Notes under the pieces: model-generated | What the model was told of the DNA's origin: nothing | Seen by the model: only the letters and a program-made list of their open reading frames with translations | The model's database searches: none | Shown: positions 44,022-64,000 of the stretch, piece by piece | How the letters are laid out: each line of letters begins with the position of its first letter | How positions within the stretch are numbered: position 1 is the stretch's first letter | Made by a program: the position numbers and the translations under genes | Assembly: GCA_033220425.1 (NCBI GenBank) | Contig: CM065652.1 | Location: 2,914,001-2,978,000, forward strand | Origin: Lepraria neglecta | Taxonomy: Eukaryota; Ascomycota; Lecanoromycetes; Lecanorales; Stereocaulaceae | DNA length: 64,000 bases | Direction: 5' to 3'

Positions 44022-44078
44022 CTCGTATTGACCCCCTACTCGGCAGTACCCTCTACTCGGCAGACGCTAAGCCTAATT
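44022..44078 (+). repeat. Left terminal inverted repeat (57 bp)
   Basis: It begins CTCGTATTGACCCCCTACTC and is the exact reverse complement of 45298-45354. It contains the motif CTACTCGGCAG twice, 15 bp apart, which may be a doubled transposase-binding site. Confidence 0.92.
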
Positions 44079-45297: not shown

Positions 45298-45354
45298 AAT
45301 TAGGCTTAGCGTCTGCCGAGTAGAGGGTACTGCCGAGTAGGGGGTCAATACGAG
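45298..45354 (-). repeat. Right terminal inverted repeat (57 bp)
   Basis: Perfect inverted copy of 44022-44078, with no mismatch across the 57 bp. Confidence 0.92.
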
Positions 45355-53148: not shown

Positions 53149-56100
53149 ATGATTGACCCACTTTCTGTCGCGGCAAGCGTAGCGGGGTTGATCTCGCTGG
53201 GAATCCAAGTTTCGCAATCCCTGGTCGACTTCTACAATTCGTATAAAGATCTCGACTCAGACGTCGATGGTACGATGAAAAGACTTGAATCCCTCTTAGA
53301 CATCTTCTGTTATCTTGACAAAACGATTTCAAATCGCAAGTTTCAAGCGGACGAACGAGACCTGATTAAGAATATCGAAGCATCTATCAAAGCATGCGAC
53401 GAGTTAGTTCAGGAACTGCAAGATGAGTGTAAGAAATTCAGCAAGACTTCTTCGAATGGAGTCAAAGCTACTATTAGAATTGCTGGACGCCGAGCCACGT
53501 ATCCGTTCCGAAAGAGCACTTTGCAGAAAATCGATGAAGATATCGACGAAATTCGTGCCAACTTGTCATCTGCGCTGGGAGTATTACAGCTTAAGGACAA
53601 CAAGAGGACTCAAACTGACGTTGCAGAGATCAAGACCCTCTTGGATTTGGTCAAAACCAATCAAATATCATCAAACCTCCGTAGCTGGCTGAAGGCACCG
53701 GACGCCACTGTTGACCACAATGCCGCGTGCTTAAAGAAACATCCTGGTACGGGATTATGGCTTATCGAGGATTCCCGTTTCACGACATGGTTGACCGAAG
53801 GGAGTTCTATTTTGTGGTTAAACGGATTTGCGGGGTCTGGGAAGTCAGTGTTGTGCTCGACAGTAATACAATTTGTCCTCCGCCACCGAAGATCGGACCC
53901 TAGAATTGGTATCGCATTCTTTTATTTCACGTTCAACGATGAGTCGAAACGAGATGAATCGGCCATGTTACGAGCGCTGCTGCTACAACTATCGACCCAG
54001 CTCCAGGACGGTCATGCAGACCTCGTTAGACTGTACGATTCATATCAGGCTAGCACACCTCCACCGCAAGTGTTGATCGAATATCTACGGCGCTTGATTG
54101 AGAGATTCCAGCATGTGTATATCATGTTGGACGCGTTAGACGAAAGTCCTCGAGACGGACTACGAGGGCACGTGCTCAATGCGTTAGAGACGATGCGAAA
54201 ATGGGTCCTACAAGGGCTGCATCTCTTTGTTGCGACCCGGGATGAGCCAGACATTCGTGATTCTCTAAGTCTTTCGACCGCCCATCAAATCAAGATGCAA
54301 AACATTGGGATAGATAAGGATATCGTGGATTTCATATCTGGTCGATTTGATACAGACCGAAAGCTGCGGAACTTATTGCCATATCGGAATAAGGTTCAAG
54401 AATCATTAGCAGGTCGTGCGAAGGGCGTGTCAGTAAACAATAACCGTCAGGTACTAGTATTAGGTGATGTGTACTGACGAGTCCCTAGGTTCCGATGGGT
54501 CGAATGCCAACTCACGGCTTTGCAGTCGTGTCCTAGTGAATATCACCTCGACCGCTTACTCAGTTCGTTGCCTAAATCTCTGGACGAGACGTACGAGCGG
54601 ATGCTATATAGTATCGACCATCATTTGATTGAAGATGCCCGACGGATCTTTACCTTGCTTTGTTTTGCCTCAAGGCCATTAACAGTGCAAGAACTTATCG
54701 ACGGGGTCGCCGTTGAAATCAATAACTCTCCAGGACTTAACCGTAAACGTCGATTACAGGATTCTAACGGCATCCGTATGATCTGTCCAGGATTTATTGA
54801 ATTCGGTCTCGAGGCAGACCATACGACCGAGACCTATGACGTAGAAAAGTCTAAACCGACCGTACGGATTGCTCACTTTTCCGTTCAAGAATACCTGGAG
54901 TCGGATCGTATCCGACACCAGAAAGCTGAGACCTTTAGCCTAACCAGCGTTATAGCGCATGCAGAAATTGCACAGATTTGTCTAGTATACTTGCTTGAGC
55001 ACAACCTTTCAAGCTCAGAGTTAGATCAGAGTATTCTCGAGGAATACCCACTGGCCCGCTTCGCGGCTATGTATTGGTACAGCCATTACAAAAGCACGGC
55101 AAATCCCGCTTCTAAATTAGACACCTGGATTTCAAGGCTATTCCAACAGAAGGAGTCATTTATGACATGGGTTAAGCTTTACGATATGGATCGCCCATGG
55201 GAAACATATGTTGTAACTGGCCGTATATTAGATAAGGTTGCAGGCCCTGTCTATTATGCATCGTTACTGGGACTTGATCAGGCGTTGCACGAATTGCTCA
55301 ATACTAAGCAACAAGAAGGTATACTAATACACTCCTTGTCGTGTACGTGAGTACTTAATGTGTTTATAGAAATCAACGCTCAAGGTGGAGAATATGGCAA
55401 TGCATTACAGGCAGCATCATATGGAGGCCATGAGAAAGTGGTACAGCAGCTGCTGGACAGAGGGGCAGAGGTCAACGCTCAAGGTGGATTATATGGCAAT
55501 ACATTATATGCAGCATCATATGGAGGCCACGAGAAAGTGGTACAGCAGCTGCTGGACAGAGGGGCAGAGGTCAACGCTCAAGGTGGAGAATATGGTAAGG
55601 CACTACAGGTAGCATCATATGGCGGCCATGAGAAAGTGGTGCAGCAGCTACTGGACAAGGAGGCGGATGTCAACGCTCAAGGTGGAGAATATGGTAATGC
55701 ATTATATCTGGCATCATCTCAAGGCCACGAGAAAGTGGTGCAGCAGCTACTGGACAAAGAGGCGGATGTCAACGCTCAAGGTAGACATTTTGGCAGTATA
55801 TTACAGGCAGCATCATATGGAGGCCATGAGAAAGTGGTACAGCAGCTGCTGGATAAGAAGGCGGATGTCAACGCTCAAGGTGGAGAATATGGCAATGCAC
55901 TACAGGCAGCATCATATAGAGGCCACGAGAAAGTGGTGCAGCAGCTGCTGGACAAGGAGGCAGAGGTCAATGCTCAAGGTGGAAAACATGGCAATGCACT
56001 ACAGGCAGCATCATCTCAAGGCTATGAGAAAGTGGTACAGCAGCTATTGGATAAGAAGGCAGATGTCAACGCTCAAGGTGGGTATTATAGCAATGCATTA

Positions 56101-59100
56101 TATGCAGCATCATATAAAGGCCACGAGAAAGTGGTGCAGCAGCTATTGGACAAGGAGGCGGATGTCAACGCTCAAGGTGGAGAATATGGTAATGCATTAT
56201 ATCTGGCATCATCTCAAGGCCACGAGAAAGTGGTGCAGCAGCTACTGGACAAAGAGGCGGATGTCAACGCTCAAGGTAGACATTTTGGCAGTATATTACA
56301 GGCAGCATCATATGGAGGCCATGAGAAAGTGGTACAGCAGCTGCTGGATAAGAAGGCGGATGTCAACGCTCAAGGTGGAAAATATGGCAATGCACTACAG
56401 GCAGCATCATATAGAGGCCACGAGAAAGTGGTGCAGCAGCTGCTGGACAAGGAGGCAGAGGTCAATGCTCAAGGTGGAAAACATGGCAATGCACTACAGG
56501 CAGCATCATCTCAAGGCTATGAGAAAGTGGTACAGCAGCTATTGGATAAGAAGGCAGATGTCAACGCTCAAGGTGGGTATTATAGCAATGCATTATATGC
56601 AGCATCATATAAAGGCCACGAGAAAGTGGTGCAGCAGCTGCTGGACAAAGAGGCGGATGTCAACTCTCAAGGTAGACATTTTGGCAGTACATTACAGGCA
56701 GCATCATATCGAGGCCATGAGAAAGTAGTACAGCAGCTGCTGGACAGAGGGGCGGATGTCAATGCTCAAAGTGGAGATTTTGGCAGTGCATTACAGGCAG
56801 CATCATATAGAGGCTATAAGAAAGTAGTGCAGCAGCTGCTGGACAAGGAGGCAGATGTCAACGCTCAAGGTGGAGAATATGGTAATGCATTATATCTGGC
56901 ATCATCTCAAGGCCACGAGAAAGTGGTGCAGCAGCTACTGGACAAAGAGGCGGATGTCAACGCTCAAGGTAGACATTTTGGCAGTATATTACAGGCAGCA
57001 TCATATGGAGGCCATGAGAAAGTGGTACAGCAGCTGCTGGACAGAGGGGCGGATGTCAATGCTCAAAGTGGATATTTTGGCAGTGCATTACAGGCAGGAT
57101 CATCTCAAGGCCACGAGAAAGTAGTGCAGCAGCTGCTGGACAAGGAGGCAGATGTCAACGCTCAAGGTGGAGAATATGGCAATGCATTATATGCAGCATC
57201 ATATAGAGGCCATGAGAAAGTGGTGCAGCAGCTGCTGGACAAGGAGGCAGATGTCAACGCTCAAGGTGGAAATTTTGGCAGTATATTACAGGCAGCATCA
57301 TATGGAGGCCATGAGAAAGTGGTACAGCAGCTGCTGGACAGAGGGGCAGAGGTCAACGCTCAAGGTAGATTATATGGCAATACATTATATGCAGCATCAT
57401 CTCAAGGCCACGAGAAAGTGGTGCAGCAGCTGCTGGACAAGGAGGCAGATGTTAACGCTCAAGGTGGAGAATGTGGTAATGCACTACAGGCAGCATCATA
57501 TGGAGGCTATGAGAAAGTGGTGCAGCAGCTGCTGGACAGAGGGGCAGAGGTTAATGCTCAAGGTGGAAAATATGGCAATGCACTACAGGCAGCATCATCT
57601 CAAGGCTATGAGAAAGTAGTGCAGCAGCTACTGGACAAGGAGGCGGATGTCAACGCTCAAGGTGGAGAATATGGCAATGCATTATATGCAGCATCATCTC
57701 AAGGCCACGAGAAAGTGGTGCAGCAGCTGCTGGACAAGGAGGCAGATGTCAACGCTCAAGGTGGGTATTATAGCAATGCACTACAGGCAGCATCATCTCA
57801 AGGCTATGAGAAAGTAGTGCAGCAGCTACTGGACAAGGAGGCGGATGTCAACGCTCAAGGTGGAGAATATGGCAATGCATTATATGCAGCATCATATCAA
57901 GGCTACGAGAAAGTGGTGCAGCAGCTGTTGGATAAGAAGGCGGATGTCAACGCTCAAGGTGGGTATTATAGCAATGCACTACAGGCAGCATCATCTCAAG
58001 GCTATGAGAAAGTAGTGCAGCAGCTACTGGACAAGGAGGCGGATGTCAACGCTCAAGGTGGAGAATATGGCAATGCATTATATGCAGCATCATCTCAAGG
58101 CCACGAGAAAGTGGTGCAGCAGCTGCTGGACAAGGAGGCAGATGTCAACGCTCAAGGTGGGTATTATAGCAATGCACTACAGGCAGCATCATCTCAAGGC
58201 TATGAGAAAGTAGTGCAGCAGCTACTGGACAAGGAGGCGGATGTCAACGCTCAAGGTGGAGAATATGGCAATGCATTATATGCAGCATCATATCAAGGCT
58301 ACGAGAAAGTGGTGCAGCAGCTGTTGGATAAGAAGGCGGATGTCAACGCTCAAGGTGGGTATTATAGCAATGCATTATATACAGCATCATCTCAAGGCTA
58401 CGAGAAAGTGGTGCAGCAGCTGCTGGACAGAGGGGCGGATGTCAATACTCAAAGTGGAAAATATGGCAATGCACTAGAGGCAGCATCATCTCAAGGCCAC
58501 GAGAAAGTGGTGCAGCAGCTGCTGGACAAGGAGGCAGATGTCAACGCTCAAGGTGGGTATTATAGCAATGCACTACAGGCAGCATCATCTCAAGGCTATG
58601 AGAAAGTAGTGCAGCAGCTACTGGACAAGGAGGCGGATGTCAACGCTCAAGGTGGAGAATATGGCAATGCATTATCTGCAGCATCATCTCAAGGCTACGA
58701 GAAAGTGGTGCAGCAGCTGCTGGACAGAGGGGCGGATGTCAATGCTCAAAGTGGAAAATATGGCAATGCACTACAGGCAGCATCATCTCAAGGCTATGAG
58801 AAAGTAGTGCAGCAGCTGCTGGACAAGGAGGCGGATGTCAACGCTCAAGGTGGGTATTATAGCAATGCATTATATGCAGCATCATATAAAGGCCACGAGA
58901 AAGTGGTGCAGCAGCTGCTAGACAAGGAGGCAGATGTCAACGCTCAAGGTGGAGAATATGGTAATGCACTACAGGCAGCATCATATAGAGGCCATGAGGA
59001 AGTGGTACAGCAGCTGCTAGACAAGGAGGCAGATGTCAACGCTCAAGGTGGACATTTTGGCAGTGCATTACAGGCAGCATCATATAGAGGCCATAAGAAA

Positions 59101-60360
59101 GTGGTGCAGCAGCTGCTGGACAGAGGGGCGGATGTCAATGCTCAAAGTGGAAAATATGGCAATGCACTACTGGCAGCATCATCTCAAGGCCACGAGAAAG
59201 TGGTGCAGCAGCTGCTGGACAAGGAGGCGGATGTCAACGCTCAAGGTGGGTATTATAGCAATGCATTATATGCAGCATCATCTCAAGGCCACGAGAAAGT
59301 GGTGCAGCAGCTGCTGGACAAGGAGGTAGATGTCAACGCTCAAGGTGGAGAATATGGTAATGCACTACAGGCAGCATTATATAGAGGCCATGAGAAAGTG
59401 GTGCAACAGCTGCTGGACAAGGAGGCAGATGTCAACGTTCAAGGTGGAAAATATGGTAATGTCTTACAGGCAGCATCATATGGAGGCCATGAGAAAGTGG
59501 TGCAACAGCTGCTGGACAAGGAGGCAGATGTCAACGCTCAAGGTGGAAAATATGGCAGTGCATTACAGGCAGCATCATATGGAGGCCATGAGGAAGTAGT
59601 GCAGCAGCTGCTGGACAAGGAGGCAGATATCAACGCTCAAGGTGGAAAATATGGTAATGCACTACAGGCAGCATCATATGGAGGCCATGAGGAAGTAGTG
59701 CAGCAGCTGCTGGACAAGGAGGCAGATGTCAACGCTCAAGGTGGAGAATATGGTAATGTACTACAGGCAGCATCATATGGAGGCCATGAGAAAGTAGTGC
59801 AGCAGCTGCTGGACAAGGAGGCGGATGTCAACGCTCAAGGTGGACATTTTGGCAGTGCATTACAGGCAGCATCATATGGAGGCCATGAGAAAGTGGTACA
59901 ACAGCTGCTGGACAAGGAGGCAGATGTCAACGCTCAAGGTGGAAAATATGGTAATGCACTACAGGCAGCATCATATGGAGGCCATGAGAAAGTAGTGCAG
60001 CAGCTGCTGGACAAGGAGGCAGATATCAACGCTCAAGGTGGAGAATGTGGTAATGCACTACAGGCAGCATCATATGGAGGCCATGAGGAAGTAGTACAGC
60101 AGCTGCTGGACAAGGAGGCAGATGTCAACGCTCAAGGTGGAGTATATGGCAGTGCATTACAGGCAGCATCATATGGAGGCCATGGGGAAGTGGTGCAACA
60201 GCTGCTGGACAAGGAGGCAGATGTCAACGCTCAAGGTGGAGAATATGGCAATGCACTACAGGCAGCAATATCTCAAGACCATGAGGAAGTGGTGCAGCAG
60301 CTGCTGGACAAGGGAGTAGCAATACTCAAGGTGGGAGACGTGGTTAAGAATAAAGATTGA
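53149..60360 (+). CDS. NLR (STAND) protein: HeLo-like - NACHT - 50 ankyrin repeats
   Basis: Proposed exons 53149-54428, 54489-55342 and 55385-60360 give 2369 residues. The N-terminus MIDPLSVAASVAGLISLGIQ is the fungal STAND N-terminal domain (HeLo-like), seen in regulated cell-death proteins. NACHT follows with Walker A GFAGSGKS (residues 226-233) and Walker B YIMLDALDES (~324-333), then LPKSLDETYERMLYSI and a winged-helix-like FTLLCFASRPLTVQELIDGV. From residue ~712 to the end are 50 ankyrin units of exactly 33 residues, consensus xGNALQAASxxGHEKVVQQL then LDKEADVNAQGG. The first intron (60 bp, TACTGAC branch) is good. The second junction is less sure: the strong GTGAGT donor with the near acceptor TTTATAG breaks the frame, while GTACGT to CTCAAG (42 bp) keeps it. 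Such proteins sense non-self or damage and oligomerise on nucleotide exchange. Confidence 0.88.
55384..60334 (+). repeat. 50-unit, 99-bp ankyrin tandem array
   Basis: The GGT of the first AQGG boundary is at 55384 and that of the last at 60235, exactly 49 x 99 bp apart, so no net insertion or deletion has accumulated. Units are nearly identical at the DNA level (for example GAGAAAGTGGTGCAGCAGCT). Changes are concentrated at a few codons: the three after GG (E/K/Y/H/R, Y/H/F, G/S), L-Q/Y, S-Y/S, G/R/Q/K and H/Y. Larger duplicated blocks are visible with periods of 495 bp (55666 and 56161) and 396 bp (57661 and 58057). Confidence 0.95.
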
Positions 60361-60404
60361 TTCGAGCTACAGCTCGCGGCGACCCATCAACAAGTAACCT
60401 GTCC

Positions 60405-60644
60405 ACGTTGGGCACAGTTAACGACCTGGGTCTTCTATACCAAGATCAGGGCAAGCTGAAGGAGGCCGAAGAGATGTACCAAAGAGCATTAAAGGGAAAT
60501 GAGAAGGCGTTGGGTCCGAAACACACATCTACGGTAAAAATAGCTGGAGATTTAAGGCGTCTACGTGAGGAAAGGACTCAACTGAAAAAAAGGTTCTTCG
60601 CAATTAACTTGAAAAGGATGCGAGCAGTTTTCTCTTCTGAATGA
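60405..60644 (+). pseudogene. Single TPR unit fragment after the NLR
   Basis: Just after the NLR stop, in another frame, the sequence encodes GTVNDLGLLYQDQGKLKEAE, EMYQRALKGNEKALGPKHTST and then a basic end, stopping at 60642-60644. This is one kinesin-light-chain-type TPR of the kind that forms the C-terminal arrays of other fungal NLRs. There is no ATG before it in frame. The GT and AG sites near the junction do not join it to the ankyrin frame in phase. It is best seen as the last piece of a former NACHT-TPR gene. Confidence 0.6.
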
Positions 60645-61277
60645 TTTGCATAATATGGTGTCCATATTGGTCCTGGGGCAATTCTGTAGCTTTAAAGTCT
60701 GTAGCTGTTCGAAGTTGAACGCGGATGCCATATCCTCAATCGGCCGGTGAAAGGATACGGCCGAGAGGGACAAGCGGCTGAGGCGTGGGAAGAGCACTCT
60801 CCGTTGGCCGGCCTCGAGTCTTAGGACTTCCCAAGCAAACAGGTTTCTCCGTTGCTTTGCACGGCCGTTACTCAGCTCTTATTAGCACTAAACTAGTCGA
60901 GTAGATCCAGCTCTAATTCCTCCAGATATTCCGAATTTCTTTAGAGGATCTTTATAAGTGCTTTGAAGTCTTCTATAGACTATAATACTTACTATGAGAG
61001 ATAACGGAGGTACGTAAGTAAGGCGAGAGAAAGGAGGGCCTCCTCTGACCTCAGCTAAAAGCAGGTATTATCGGTAACAAAATATAGAGAGACCAAGCGA
61101 TTTTACTTCGTGGACAGAAAAGCGAGCACTTTTTCAGGCAGGCACGTTCCTAGTCCCCAGCTATTATATAGTTTCTTAGCAAGGGAATTTCAAAAGGGCT
61201 TAGGGCCCTCAATCACCTGAAACTATAAAGACTATTATCGTCGAGTCGGTTAAACAGCGGTATTAGTTCCTCCTCGA

Positions 61278-61308
<31 letters not shown>

Positions 61309-62599
61309 AACGTCTAAGTCTCTGATAGAAATCAGCGGCGAGATAGAGGTACTTTACGTATTAGAGACAGCCATTAGTTGTTGAGCAAGTGCGCAAAAGT
61401 GGTCCAACATTAAAATCCTCCAATTCCCATTCTTTATCAGCGTGAATAGTGACCGCCTGATATAGTCTGGGAACGGTATAGTTATAGATGCTTTTAGAGA
61501 CTTCACAGAGCCTTTTAAGGTCTCTACTGTTATAGATCTACGTTATATAAGACAGCACTTGTCGTCGTTCAGGGACACACCTGTTCGAGGATCAGCTAGA
61601 TAATTTCGGGCGGCAATTTATCCAGCATCTTTATCGAATCCGCAGCCGACTATTAAACATCTATAGACTATATCCTCGTGCTCTCTCTAAGGTATATTAG
61701 GTCTACAGAGTCTTCCGTCTCTTTCAGGTTACCCTCCTGTCTAATATCACGTCTGGGGTTGTCGCATCCAATAGGTCATTGATAGGTATAGTAATGTGTT
61801 ACCCGTTGTAGAGGGGTATCACTTAGCGTAGGATCGATCAGAGAAGTAGGTATTTACGTTCACTTTGAATAATGATTAGTAAACCGATTGAAAGTCGTCG
61901 TGACGGTATGGATTATCGTATATATATATGCAGGCTTGGAACTAGAAGCGCATAACACAGTTAGCTATAGGACCCGAAAGTGATCCTGGTCAGTAGATAG
62001 ACCTCACTAGAAGTTGAAGGTGTAATATAGGTCAAGTTTAACTCTTGAAGCGCGCGGCTCTGCGAGAGATTTGCAAGATAGTTAGGGCGGACACGGTTCG
62101 CGGGAAATATGTATCCTAAGCACTGGCTATTGGCACCTTCGTATATAGCCCATATCTAGAGGTTAAGAAGCTTCTAGAATATAAATTCTAAGTTTGACGC
62201 TCGATTTGTTTCGGAGATCTATAATTACGCCCTGCGACTTGAAGAATATGAGTCATAGAGCCTTCATCCTATAAATCCCTATAGAACCTAGAGTAGCCAT
62301 AACCCCCTTCCCTAGGGGAGTAGAGGTAAAATATAATTAGAAAGCGGCTACTTTCTGCTGGTATACTATTACAATCCGCTCGCCAACAAAAGCCAACGAG
62401 GCGATAATGGGGTAAAAGCGTTATTGGCTTTATCAAGTGGCGGAAAAGGATGGGACCCTGCCCGTCCTTACTAAGAACTAGTCTTTGGGCTGATGAGTTA
62501 ATAAAGCTATAGCCTATATCTAAAATTAAATAGACCGAGAGACCGGACATTTAACTCCGGAACTCTTACCCCAGCGGTGGCCTATAGCTCCAGTTCTAG
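60645..62599. other. AT- and TpA-rich gene-free DNA
   Basis: About 2 kb rich in TATA, CTATAG and TTATAG words, with many stops in all six frames. The appearance is that of RIP-mutated repetitive DNA, but I recognise no transposon ends or domains. Base counts were not computed. Confidence 0.45.
61278..61304. repeat. (AT)n microsatellite
   Basis: Thirteen AT dinucleotides without interruption within the AT-rich region. Confidence 0.85.
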
Positions 62600-62899
62600 C
62601 GCTCCCCACCCGTTCAAGCAGCGGCTCCAATTCTGACAACCCCTCACATTCTAGCACCCACGCCTACTGCTCCTACCGGTACTGGTGGTCTCTTTGACAG
62701 CATTGGAAATCTTCCTCGTACCGAGACGTCTGGTGAGAATGTCAGCACATTGGCTAATACAGCTAGTACAGGGAACACCGACACTGACACCCAGAGCTCC
62801 AGTGGAAGCGACACCGTCTTTGGTGATGCTCCCAGCACTGGTAACACTCCTTCCAGCAGTCGTCTTGGTGGTGATCGTCCAGGAAATGGGAGTGGTTGA
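62600..62899 (+). pseudogene. 3' fragment of a Ser/Thr/Gly/Pro-rich protein gene
   Basis: An open frame of 99 codons without ATG, between TAG at 62597 and TGA at 62897-62899. It encodes a Pro/Ala/Thr-rich part (PTPTAPTGTGGLFDSIGNLP) and a Ser/Thr/Gly/Asp-rich end (NTDTDTQSSSGSDTVFGDAP). Composition resembles the C-terminal tails of secreted or cell-surface fungal proteins. The 5' part is missing, replaced by AT-rich DNA, so this is probably a truncated relic. It could instead be a final exon of an unseen gene. Confidence 0.35.
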
Positions 62900-63339
62900 A
62901 GCGTTCTACGGTATATTACGCGAGCACCAGAGGGGGAAAAGTCACCTGTACATATTAGCGATGAATGCCACCTTTCTTATAGGGCACTTTTCATGCACTG
63001 CGAAGGTAAATCAGAGAAGATTATGTTTTGTAATGAGAGAATAGTATGTAATTCTGAAACGAAATCATTAATGCAACGAGCTTTTCCTCTATGATACACA
63101 TAATACAGCGCCTTTGCCAAGATCAAAACGCTCAAAGAACTTTTGCTTCCCAAACATTCAAACGCCAGTACTGCGAATATCTCATATTTTGGGTTATGAA
63201 CCCTCACTTTCCCTCATAAACGCTTTCGCTTTTGCATCCACCAACCTCTAAACCAGCACCAGACACCTGACAGCAAAAGGACATGGGTAATGGGTATCGA
63301 AACTTTTGGCCCCTTCGCAAGAAAATCAAAAGACGAAAA
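62900..63339. other. Intergenic gap
   Basis: It holds the 3' flank of the LRR gene on the minus strand. Nothing else recognised. Confidence 0.4.
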
Positions 63340-64000
63340 TCACTTTTTGAACATGTAATGCCCATACAATCCCGCAACTTCGCCCCACGCAACAGGCACT
63401 TTCCTCATTCCGCGCCACATAGCGCCCATCTTCCACGCTCGCCTGCCACTACTCGAGCCACCATTCTCGCGCACATACCATCCCCGCCTGCCGAGCTCCT
63501 TGATGACCCATCCAAGGCGCTTGTTCGTGTTCTTAGTCTCTCGGAGGCTAGAGATAGCTTTGTCACCTAGTTCGATGACATCGAGAGGTAGAGTAGCGGG
63601 TGTAAGGAGGATGTTGGTAGGGGCGGGTGTGGTGAAGAGTGTAGTCCTCGTTACGGATGGGATGGAGGTCAAGTCAAGGTAGTAGAGGGTTGGAGGCTGC
63701 CACTGCTTCTGTTGCTCGGATGTGTCCTTGTCATTTTCGTTCTGGGGAGGACGGAAGAAGGAGTTGATGTCGGCGAGAGAAAGGTTGGCGGTAGCAAGAC
63801 CAAGCTCTTCCAAGTGCTTGGTAAGAGGAAGAAGTTGTTGGACATGGCGGGGTTGGATTCGGGCGCCGTTGAGGTTGAGTGAGCAGAGACTGGAGGGGAG
63901 GGCTGGGAGGAGGCGGTCTATGTCTGTGTCGTATAAGAGGCGGTAGTGGGAGATATCGCAGGCGAGGTTGAGATAGACGAGCTCCTTTACGCCCGGGTGT
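63340..64000 (-). CDS. Leucine-rich-repeat protein (5' partial)
   Basis: The minus-strand frame is open from the window edge to the stop at 63340; 219 residues are visible, and the N-terminus lies to the right of the window. Leucine-rich segments appear early: KELVYLNLACDISHYRLL, SSLCSLNLNGARI, HVQQLLPLTKHLEELGLA and LYYLDLTSI. A conserved-looking C-terminus follows, with ELGRRGWYVRENGG, a Trp/Gly/Met-rich GAMWRGMRKVPVA and GLYGHYMFKK. I know similar LRR proteins from Pezizomycotina without assigned function. A scaffold or recognition role is inferred from the LRRs. Confidence 0.75.
   Translation of the reverse strand, partial: HPGVKELVYLNLACDISHYRLLYDTDIDRLLPALPSSLCSLNLNGARIQPRHVQQLLPLTKHLEELGLATANLSLADINSFFRPPQNENDKDTSEQQKQWQPPTLYYLDLTSIPSVTRTTLFTTPAPTNILLTPATLPLDVIELGDKAISSLRETKNTNKRLGWVIKELGRRGWYVRENGGSSSGRRAWKMGAMWRGMRKVPVAWGEVAGLYGHYMFKK

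Follow-up and report, generated by a model that had tools for sequence, protein, structure and literature searches.

A 50-unit ankyrin array behind a predicted NLR body in the fungus Lepraria neglecta

Introduction

How do fungi, which have no adaptive immunity, keep gaining new recognition specificities? A locus of Lepraria neglecta raises this question. The stretch analyzed here, called the window throughout, comprises 64,000 nucleotides of assembly GCA_033220425.1 (contig CM065652.1, positions 2,914,001 to 2,978,000, forward strand) and contains 50 consecutive ankyrin (ANK) units behind the predicted body of a NOD-like receptor (NLR). A combination of mutation supply, shuffling, and selection has been proposed for the repeats of such receptors (PMC1805685, PMC4986451). 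The principle of fungal repeat diversification is already published, and the unusual point of the present gene is its length, which poses a question of its own, namely, how the switch of a receptor operates when its solenoid has 50 units. The proposal becomes testable in this genome, because it provides nine homogenized ankyrin arrays (8 to 50 units), a mutation-context signal, and two body paralogues of the window receptor that date its array turnover. We consider it likely that the window gene encodes a fungal NLR of the STAND (signal transduction ATPases with numerous domains) type, in which a 50-unit ankyrin sensor evolves as a unit through block exchange, with variants at exposed positions.

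The array consists of 50 in-frame ankyrin units

The array extends from 55372 to 60321 on the forward strand and consists of units of 99 bp, or 33 codons, in frame, with the consensus VNAQGGEYGNALQAASYQGHEKVVQQLLDKEAD. All 50 units are whole and contain neither a stop codon nor an indel. Tandem Repeats Finder reports a single array (55373-60313) of 49.9 copies of 99 bp with 0% indels and a score of 6749; the absence of indels is weak evidence when taken alone, because 99 bp is the ordinary length of an ankyrin repeat. Over the 1,225 unit pairs, identity averages 86.3% in DNA (range, 75.8 to 100%) and 79.7% in protein, and the units are on average 86.5% identical to the consensus in amino acids. 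Thirteen pairs are identical in DNA, and the 50 units represent 41 distinct types in DNA and 39 in protein. A preliminary description, made from the letters of the window, had reported 50 near-identical 99-bp units without net indel; the number and the lack of indels stand, whereas near-identity of the units is ruled out by the mean values above and is confined to blocks. The coordinates given at that time (55384-60334) describe this array with its phase shifted by about 12 bp.

Pfam identifies the units as ankyrin repeats, and two further comparisons address the fold. In a sequence search of the PDB with units 26 to 35, the best match was an extended designed ankyrin repeat protein (DARPin; 2e-73). 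Single-sequence AF2 modeling of units 26 to 37 gave one model with a predicted local distance difference test (pLDDT) value of 71, which matched ankyrin-1 in the PDB (E = 5.8e-10); the other four of the five models reached pLDDT values of 41 to 47, which weakens this line of evidence.

Gene model of the predicted receptor

Removal of two predicted introns joins three exons, all on the forward strand, into a predicted protein of 2,366 residues. Exon 1 (53149..54428) begins at ATG 53149 and encodes a HeLo-like domain, NPHP3_N, and NACHT. In Pfam, PF17111 (PigL_N, the same as Helo_like_N, a name taken from PMC9815663) matches residues 3 to 166 with 45.1 bits against a cutoff of 27.2 (E = 9.8e-12), NPHP3_N and NACHT match residues 200 to 364 (E = 1e-33) and 221 to 376 (E = 5.5e-7) and likewise pass their cutoffs, and Ank_2 scores 1,217 bits on the array, far beyond chance. 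The NLR architecture suggested in the preliminary description is supported by these matches. A Walker A motif (GFAGSGKS) and a Walker B-like motif (IMLDALDE) were read by eye in the exon 1 translation. PF17111 has at least 49 matches in this genome and 0 in 14 control genomes; since the controls that are named are prokaryotes, this absence is uninformative about other fungi.

Predicted intron 1 (54429..54488; 60 bp, GT...AG, phase 2) is flanked by sequences that join to G-V-F-R-W-V. The genome contains two close paralogues of the receptor body, L010 (20 units) and L013 (8 units), with 73% identity over 426 residues, and their open frames also break after AKGV and restart at FRWV, matching intron 1. 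Exon 2 (54489..55318) comprises the end of the nucleotide-binding oligomerization domain (NOD) region and the linker to the array, and its amino acid identity to L010 and L013 is 70 to 72% over 275 codons. Exon 3 (55370..60360) holds the array and a short tail, where a degenerate, out-of-register 51st unit (60322..60360) closes the reading frame at TGA 60358-60360. The open frame carrying the array has 1,666 codons and terminates at 60360.

The join between receptor and array is the weak point of this model. Predicted intron 2 (55319..55369; 51 bp, GTATAC...TATAG) keeps the frame, but its splice signals, the 5' splice site included, appear weak by eye, and the 50 ANK units share a protein with the NOD only if it is spliced over the in-frame TGA at 55348-55350. 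Several observations count against an intact receptor of the proposed kind: this TGA lies within the predicted intron, the segment concerned is an open coding linker in both L010 and L013, and the N-terminal region found no structural counterpart. For the latter, a single-sequence model (best pLDDT, 63; other four, 39 to 51) had no PDB match with an E value of ≤0.001, the best value being 0.17 among the best 50 of 626 matches; a HeLo fold is not borne out by structure comparison, and the modeling neither supports nor refutes it.

A recently broken receptor would present a similar picture: the TGA at 55348 would cut off the effector-NACHT part and leave the array as a relic that no longer senses. 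In addition to the stop and the weak splice signals, this explanation fits the lack of any counterpart, behind the window array, to the diverged C-terminal ankyrin repeats and tail of L013, the window array closing instead with its degenerate unit; the arrays of L010 and of L009, another locus with similar units, run into stops too. Nevertheless, we regard it as unlikely. The 4,950 bp of the array are free of stops and frameshifts despite variation that is prone to C-to-T change, even though a single C>T or G>A change would turn any one of 206 codons in it into a stop. Among nonsynonymous CpA/TpG cells, 54 of 550 are changed, and so are 16 of 250 cells at stop-prone consensus sites, the 16 all lying in codons that read as amino acids (TAT, TCT). 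A frame-keeping GT-AG intron of fungal size is present, and the array can hardly be read independently, because no methionine is encoded anywhere in the 1,670 codons, counting the stop, that run from 55351 to 60360. Splicing of intron 2 would be the route by which the predicted receptor acquires its sensor.

Units are homogenized within the locus

The window units were compared with those of the other arrays in the same genome, giving a set of 198 units in nine arrays. Besides the window, L010, and L013, these are L009 (33 units), L011 (19), L012 (11), L014 (15), L015 (25), and L016 (17). Units were picked with a profile of the window units (match start at ≤4, end at ≥30, no stop); the set excludes L017, which has 2 units, a fossil unit at L018, positions with stops in L009, and, in L009 and L011, positions that follow irregular spacings. 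Nine arrays is a lower bound, since weaker arrays (e.g., C1:3951194-3952603) were also set aside. All 50 window units, and 196 of the 198 units overall, have their nearest unit in the same array, while 200 label shuffles gave a mean of 20 and a maximum of 34 such cases.

The proportions of synonymous (pS) and nonsynonymous (pN) differences place this homogenization in time. Units of the window array differ from one another by a pS of 0.22. Between the window receptor body and those of L010 and L013, pS is 0.52 to 0.57 and pN is 0.145 to 0.163, values that indicate purifying selection on the body. The array consensus of the window differs from those of L010 and L013 by a pS of 0.52 and 0.53, respectively, equal to the body values. 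Because pS within the array is 0.22 and that to the paralogues is about 0.5, the unit pool of the whole array appears to be younger than the gene duplication, and the window array would have turned over after it.

The array contains two long block copies, both on the forward strand. A 515-bp block (55630..56144) recurs at 56125-56639 at a lag of exactly 5 units with 2 mismatches, and a 404-bp block (57575..57978) recurs at 57971-58374 at a lag of exactly 4 units with 0 mismatches; shorter block copies occur at lags of 2, 4, 6, 7, 8, 10, and 12 units. Collinear neighbor pairs with ≥97% identity number 5, compared with 0.16 expected and a maximum of 3 in 2,000 shuffles. Identity at lag 1 (86.1%) is no higher than the average, and that at lags 4 and 5 is slightly higher (88%). 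The two long copies suggest that units are exchanged in multi-unit blocks. Homogenization had initially been described as recent or ongoing. It is borne out within the locus by the nearest-unit counts and by the low pS, whereas "ongoing" is an overstatement, because it would rest on a few block duplications in a single strain.

An exact 404-bp repeat is also of the type that assemblers duplicate or lose, and the unit number might have been inflated or collapsed in this way, an explanation that is compatible with block exchange in a long array. We judge such an error very improbable, since most units are individually marked by the 41 distinct DNA types, and the 42.0-Mb assembly consists of 11 contigs, with the window inside one of 4.73 Mb.

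Variation is concentrated at exposed positions

Alignment with a DARPin fixes the numbering of the unit, such that unit positions 7, 17, and 18 correspond to ankyrin positions 3, 13, and 14. The most variable unit positions in the window are 7, 18, 13, 11, 31, and 17 (ankyrin positions 3, 14, 9, 7, 27, and 13). In a designed ankyrin library, positions 2, 3, 5, 10, 13, and 14, which point outward on one surface, were randomized (PMC3308923). At these six positions, pN in the window is 3.5 times that at the other positions (permutation P = 0.002), and the enrichment has a P value of <0.02 in 9 of 9 arrays. When each array was held out in turn, the three most variable sites in the remaining eight were 3, 13, and 14 every time. 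The ratio of held-out pN at these three sites to array-wide pS ranges from 1.67 to 4.39 over the arrays, compared with 0.24 to 0.73 elsewhere; for the window, it is 1.75 (bootstrap interval, 1.55 to 2.17) versus 0.37 at other sites. The bootstrap used 200 resamples of distinct units, with 25 draws each for arrays of more than 25. The permutation assumes exchangeable sites and the units are related, so that the intervals are too narrow and the permutation P values are optimistic; the enrichment locates the variation, and the excess over 1 at sites 3, 13, and 14 holds against array-wide pS. Two apparent "stop" variants are single letters of multiply changed codons (e.g., CAG to TAT), not real stops.

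A number of results weigh against selection for diversity. The whole-array pN/pS of the window is 0.50, the counts of its distinct nonsynonymous and synonymous variants (45:18) match those expected from mutation (44:17), and pN/pS over seven DARPin positions is 0.77. On the first two of these grounds, positive selection across the entire array is not shown. Position 13 ranks only sixth by variability in the window, where positions 9, 7, and 27 vary too, and L013 is invariant at position 14. With both measures taken at sites 3, 13, and 14, pN is the larger one in 8 of 9 arrays, L016 being the exception. The expectation that variation would fall on the codons after GG (ankyrin position 3) and within AAS(Y/S)x (positions 13 and 14) proved correct, in agreement with the hold-out result. 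For the positive selection that had been predicted there, the ratio of 1.75 speaks in favor and the whole-array value against; because of the latter, positive selection is arguable for only a few sites.

The low overall pN/pS, together with an invariant framework at positions 8, 19 to 25, 31, and 33, could also be read as an ordinary structural scaffold, whose units resemble one another through constraint of the fold, with neither rapid turnover nor a role in recognition. This is improbable in our view: synonymous sites are homogenized within the array and units cluster by locus, the 404-bp copy is without a single difference, and surface positions are overly variable in every one of the nine arrays.

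A CpA/TpG bias resembles mild repeat-induced point mutation

Relative to the consensus, the window array has transition variants at 17 of 18 nonstop CpA/TpG sites, compared with 12 of 27 other C/G sites. The stratified odds ratio (OR) for this bias is 22.5 in the window (P = 0.002) and 6.3 over the nine arrays, which share ancestry, so that pooled P values are optimistic. The bias has a P value of <0.05 in 5 of 9 arrays, including the window, and is not significant in L009 (0.056), L013 (0.09), L015 (0.75), and L016 (0.43). A polarized control on three receptor bodies gave an OR of 1.32 (P = 0.057), with 1.19 for the window and 0.54 for L013, and a separate body control by a different measure gave ORs of 0.59 to 1.41 in six directions.

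Repeat-induced point mutation (RIP) has been proposed as a source of mutation for HNWD genes (PMC1805685) and NLR repeats (PMC4986451). The context bias fits a mild RIP-like mutation of the repeats. Two results tell against this interpretation: the pairwise, unpolarized OR of the window array is only 1.26 (1.4 to 11 in the others), and the L010 body is biased as well (OR = 3.02, P = 0.001), which means that the bias extends beyond arrays. RIP as a complete explanation was rejected, since the window array is rich in CpA/TpG rather than eroded (CpA+TpG index, 2.26), some arrays lack the bias, and the L010 body has it. DNA methylase matches in the genome number six at four places, none of which was identified as a RIP enzyme. 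Stops occur within or at the end of other arrays (L009:7105-7107, L009:7627-7629, and L010:6302-6304), and the changes at L009:7105 resemble, by eye, C-to-T/G-to-A changes at CpA/TpG.

Proposed mechanism and comparison with known systems

In the receptor that we favor, the NACHT domain would act as an ATPase switch and the 50-unit solenoid as the sensor of a ligand, and the HeLo-like N-terminal domain, once oligomerized, would probably kill the cell by membrane damage. Blocks of several units would be gained or lost through in-register unequal crossing-over or conversion, which would homogenize the framework. Point changes, many with a RIP-like CpA/TpG bias, would supply variants at exposed sites (3, 13, and 14, among others) at which change may be tolerated or favored. 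Shuffling of these variants along the solenoid would rebuild the binding groove and hence the specificity, possibly in non-self recognition.

The nearest described proteins are Pa_3_8560 and Pa_2_8180 of Podospora anserina (PNP_UDP/NACHT/ANK) and gi116208038 of Chaetomium globosum, which resemble the window gene in having NACHT, ANK units of 33 amino acids that are very similar within an array, and variable sites on the concave face of the ankyrin repeats (PMC4986451). That study reports high internal conservation for 10% of the ANK repeats of fungal NLRs, with units of typically 33 to 34 amino acids, and that variable ANK sites lie on the concave face with one exception. Its criterion was T-reks with a PSIM of 0.85 and repeats of >85% identity over at least 100 amino acids, against which the window array is set here by its means (86.5% to the consensus, 79.7% pairwise) rather than by T-reks output. 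The effectors differ, PNP_UDP in the two Podospora proteins and HeLo-like in the window. Repeat number ranges from 7 to >16 among P. anserina isolates, and the most highly conserved ANK units in one protein number 21, compared with 50 in the window, in line with the initial characterization of fifty units as a very large array. Repeat-number polymorphism has been shown for the P. anserina NLRs, whereas the window array is known from one genome; variation between strains would be expected. No fungal ankyrin array of 50 or more units was found in a search of the open-license literature. The window gene is an extremely long example of an already described receptor class, with a HeLo-like effector. 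The NLRs of Sordariales have been surveyed in PMC12258605 (see also PMC5120217).

HET-E, HET-D, and HET-R, the HNWD proteins of P. anserina (PMC1805685, PMC2873952, PMC12222747), resemble the window in concerted evolution, few diversified surface codons, and the proposed involvement of RIP. Long reads of HET-D/HET-E (PMC12222747) and mutant collections (PMC2873952) tie repeat gain, loss, and shuffling to specificity. However, HNWD proteins combine a HET domain with a WD40 propeller, whereas the window has a HeLo-like domain and an open ankyrin solenoid, and incompatibility is shown for HNWD only. Neither HET nor WD40 was among the Pfam matches of the receptor; membership in the HET-E/HET-D family was rejected on this basis, and the analogy is kept. 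Designed ankyrin libraries (PMC3308923, PMC8683736) likewise have a fixed framework and include 3, 13, and 14 among the varied exposed positions, but they are artificial, and the resemblance concerns layout rather than descent or function. The Wolbachia protein Oscar (PMC9663696), with 40 ankyrin repeats, has a similarly long solenoid; it is bacterial and of another architecture, and the comparison is limited to length.

Relatives and genomic neighborhood

In Pfam scans of pieces of the related loci, those of L009, L011, L012, L014, and L016 matched an NACHT-type NOD or a winged-helix domain; the L015 piece matched ankyrin models only, apart from matches taken as spurious. In a search with exon 1, the L014 body has 35% identity and that of L011 has 31% over 140 residues, and the bodies of L009, L012, L015, and L016 are not among the matches listed. 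The array consensuses of the seven arrays other than the window and L016 differ from one another by a pS of 0.18 to 0.46. This suggests that arrays may have been transferred between NLR families, a reading made from short 33-codon consensuses, with L010 versus L013 as the only comparison of bodies other than that of the window. A bolder, tentative extension would see a natural counterpart of an engineered ankyrin library, in which RIP-like CpA/TpG changes are written into the 4.95-kb array, spread or discarded by block exchange, and selected such that the framework and the variable positions of the engineered type are kept, in at least nine arrays; units would have moved between NLR families, and the 50-unit array would have stayed outside this pool for about as long as the gene has existed.

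Downstream of the array, at 60401..60666 on the forward strand, a TPR gene has left a remnant of its 3' end, in a frame that differs from that of the array (TPR_10, E = 3.2e-11 over 60363-60644); 60424-60666 shares 84% identity with the terminal part of a TPR gene at another locus of the genome (L018:2765-3011). Reciprocally, the TPR gene at L018 is followed, at L018:3586-3651, by a fragment similar to the linker and first unit of an ANK-type NLR. Perhaps the two gene types were once adjacent and later rearranged. The TPR gene itself (L018:385-2982) has 14 TPR_10 matches with a 126-bp period and is perhaps a second kind of similar-repeat array.

Farther along, 61927-62211 matches L017:3348-3642, in opposite orientation, with 82% identity, and the TA/AT ratio is 1.07 to 1.10 at 60001-64000 versus 0.56 to 0.87 in the remaining 2-kb blocks of the window, a skew expected of RIP-eroded repeats. 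Upstream, 10 of the 29 open reading frames of ≥150 amino acids in the window were scanned (positions 1 to 50000), 3 matching nothing and 7 matching ordinary families: a PP-loop/zinc-ribbon protein, a Yme1-like protease, an FGGY kinase, the proteasome activator PSME4, an F-box protein, an Fe-S assembly protein, and a hydrolase. Two 17-bp tandem pairs (44031-44063 and 45313-45345), 1.3 kb apart, are roughly reverse complements by eye and could be transposon ends.

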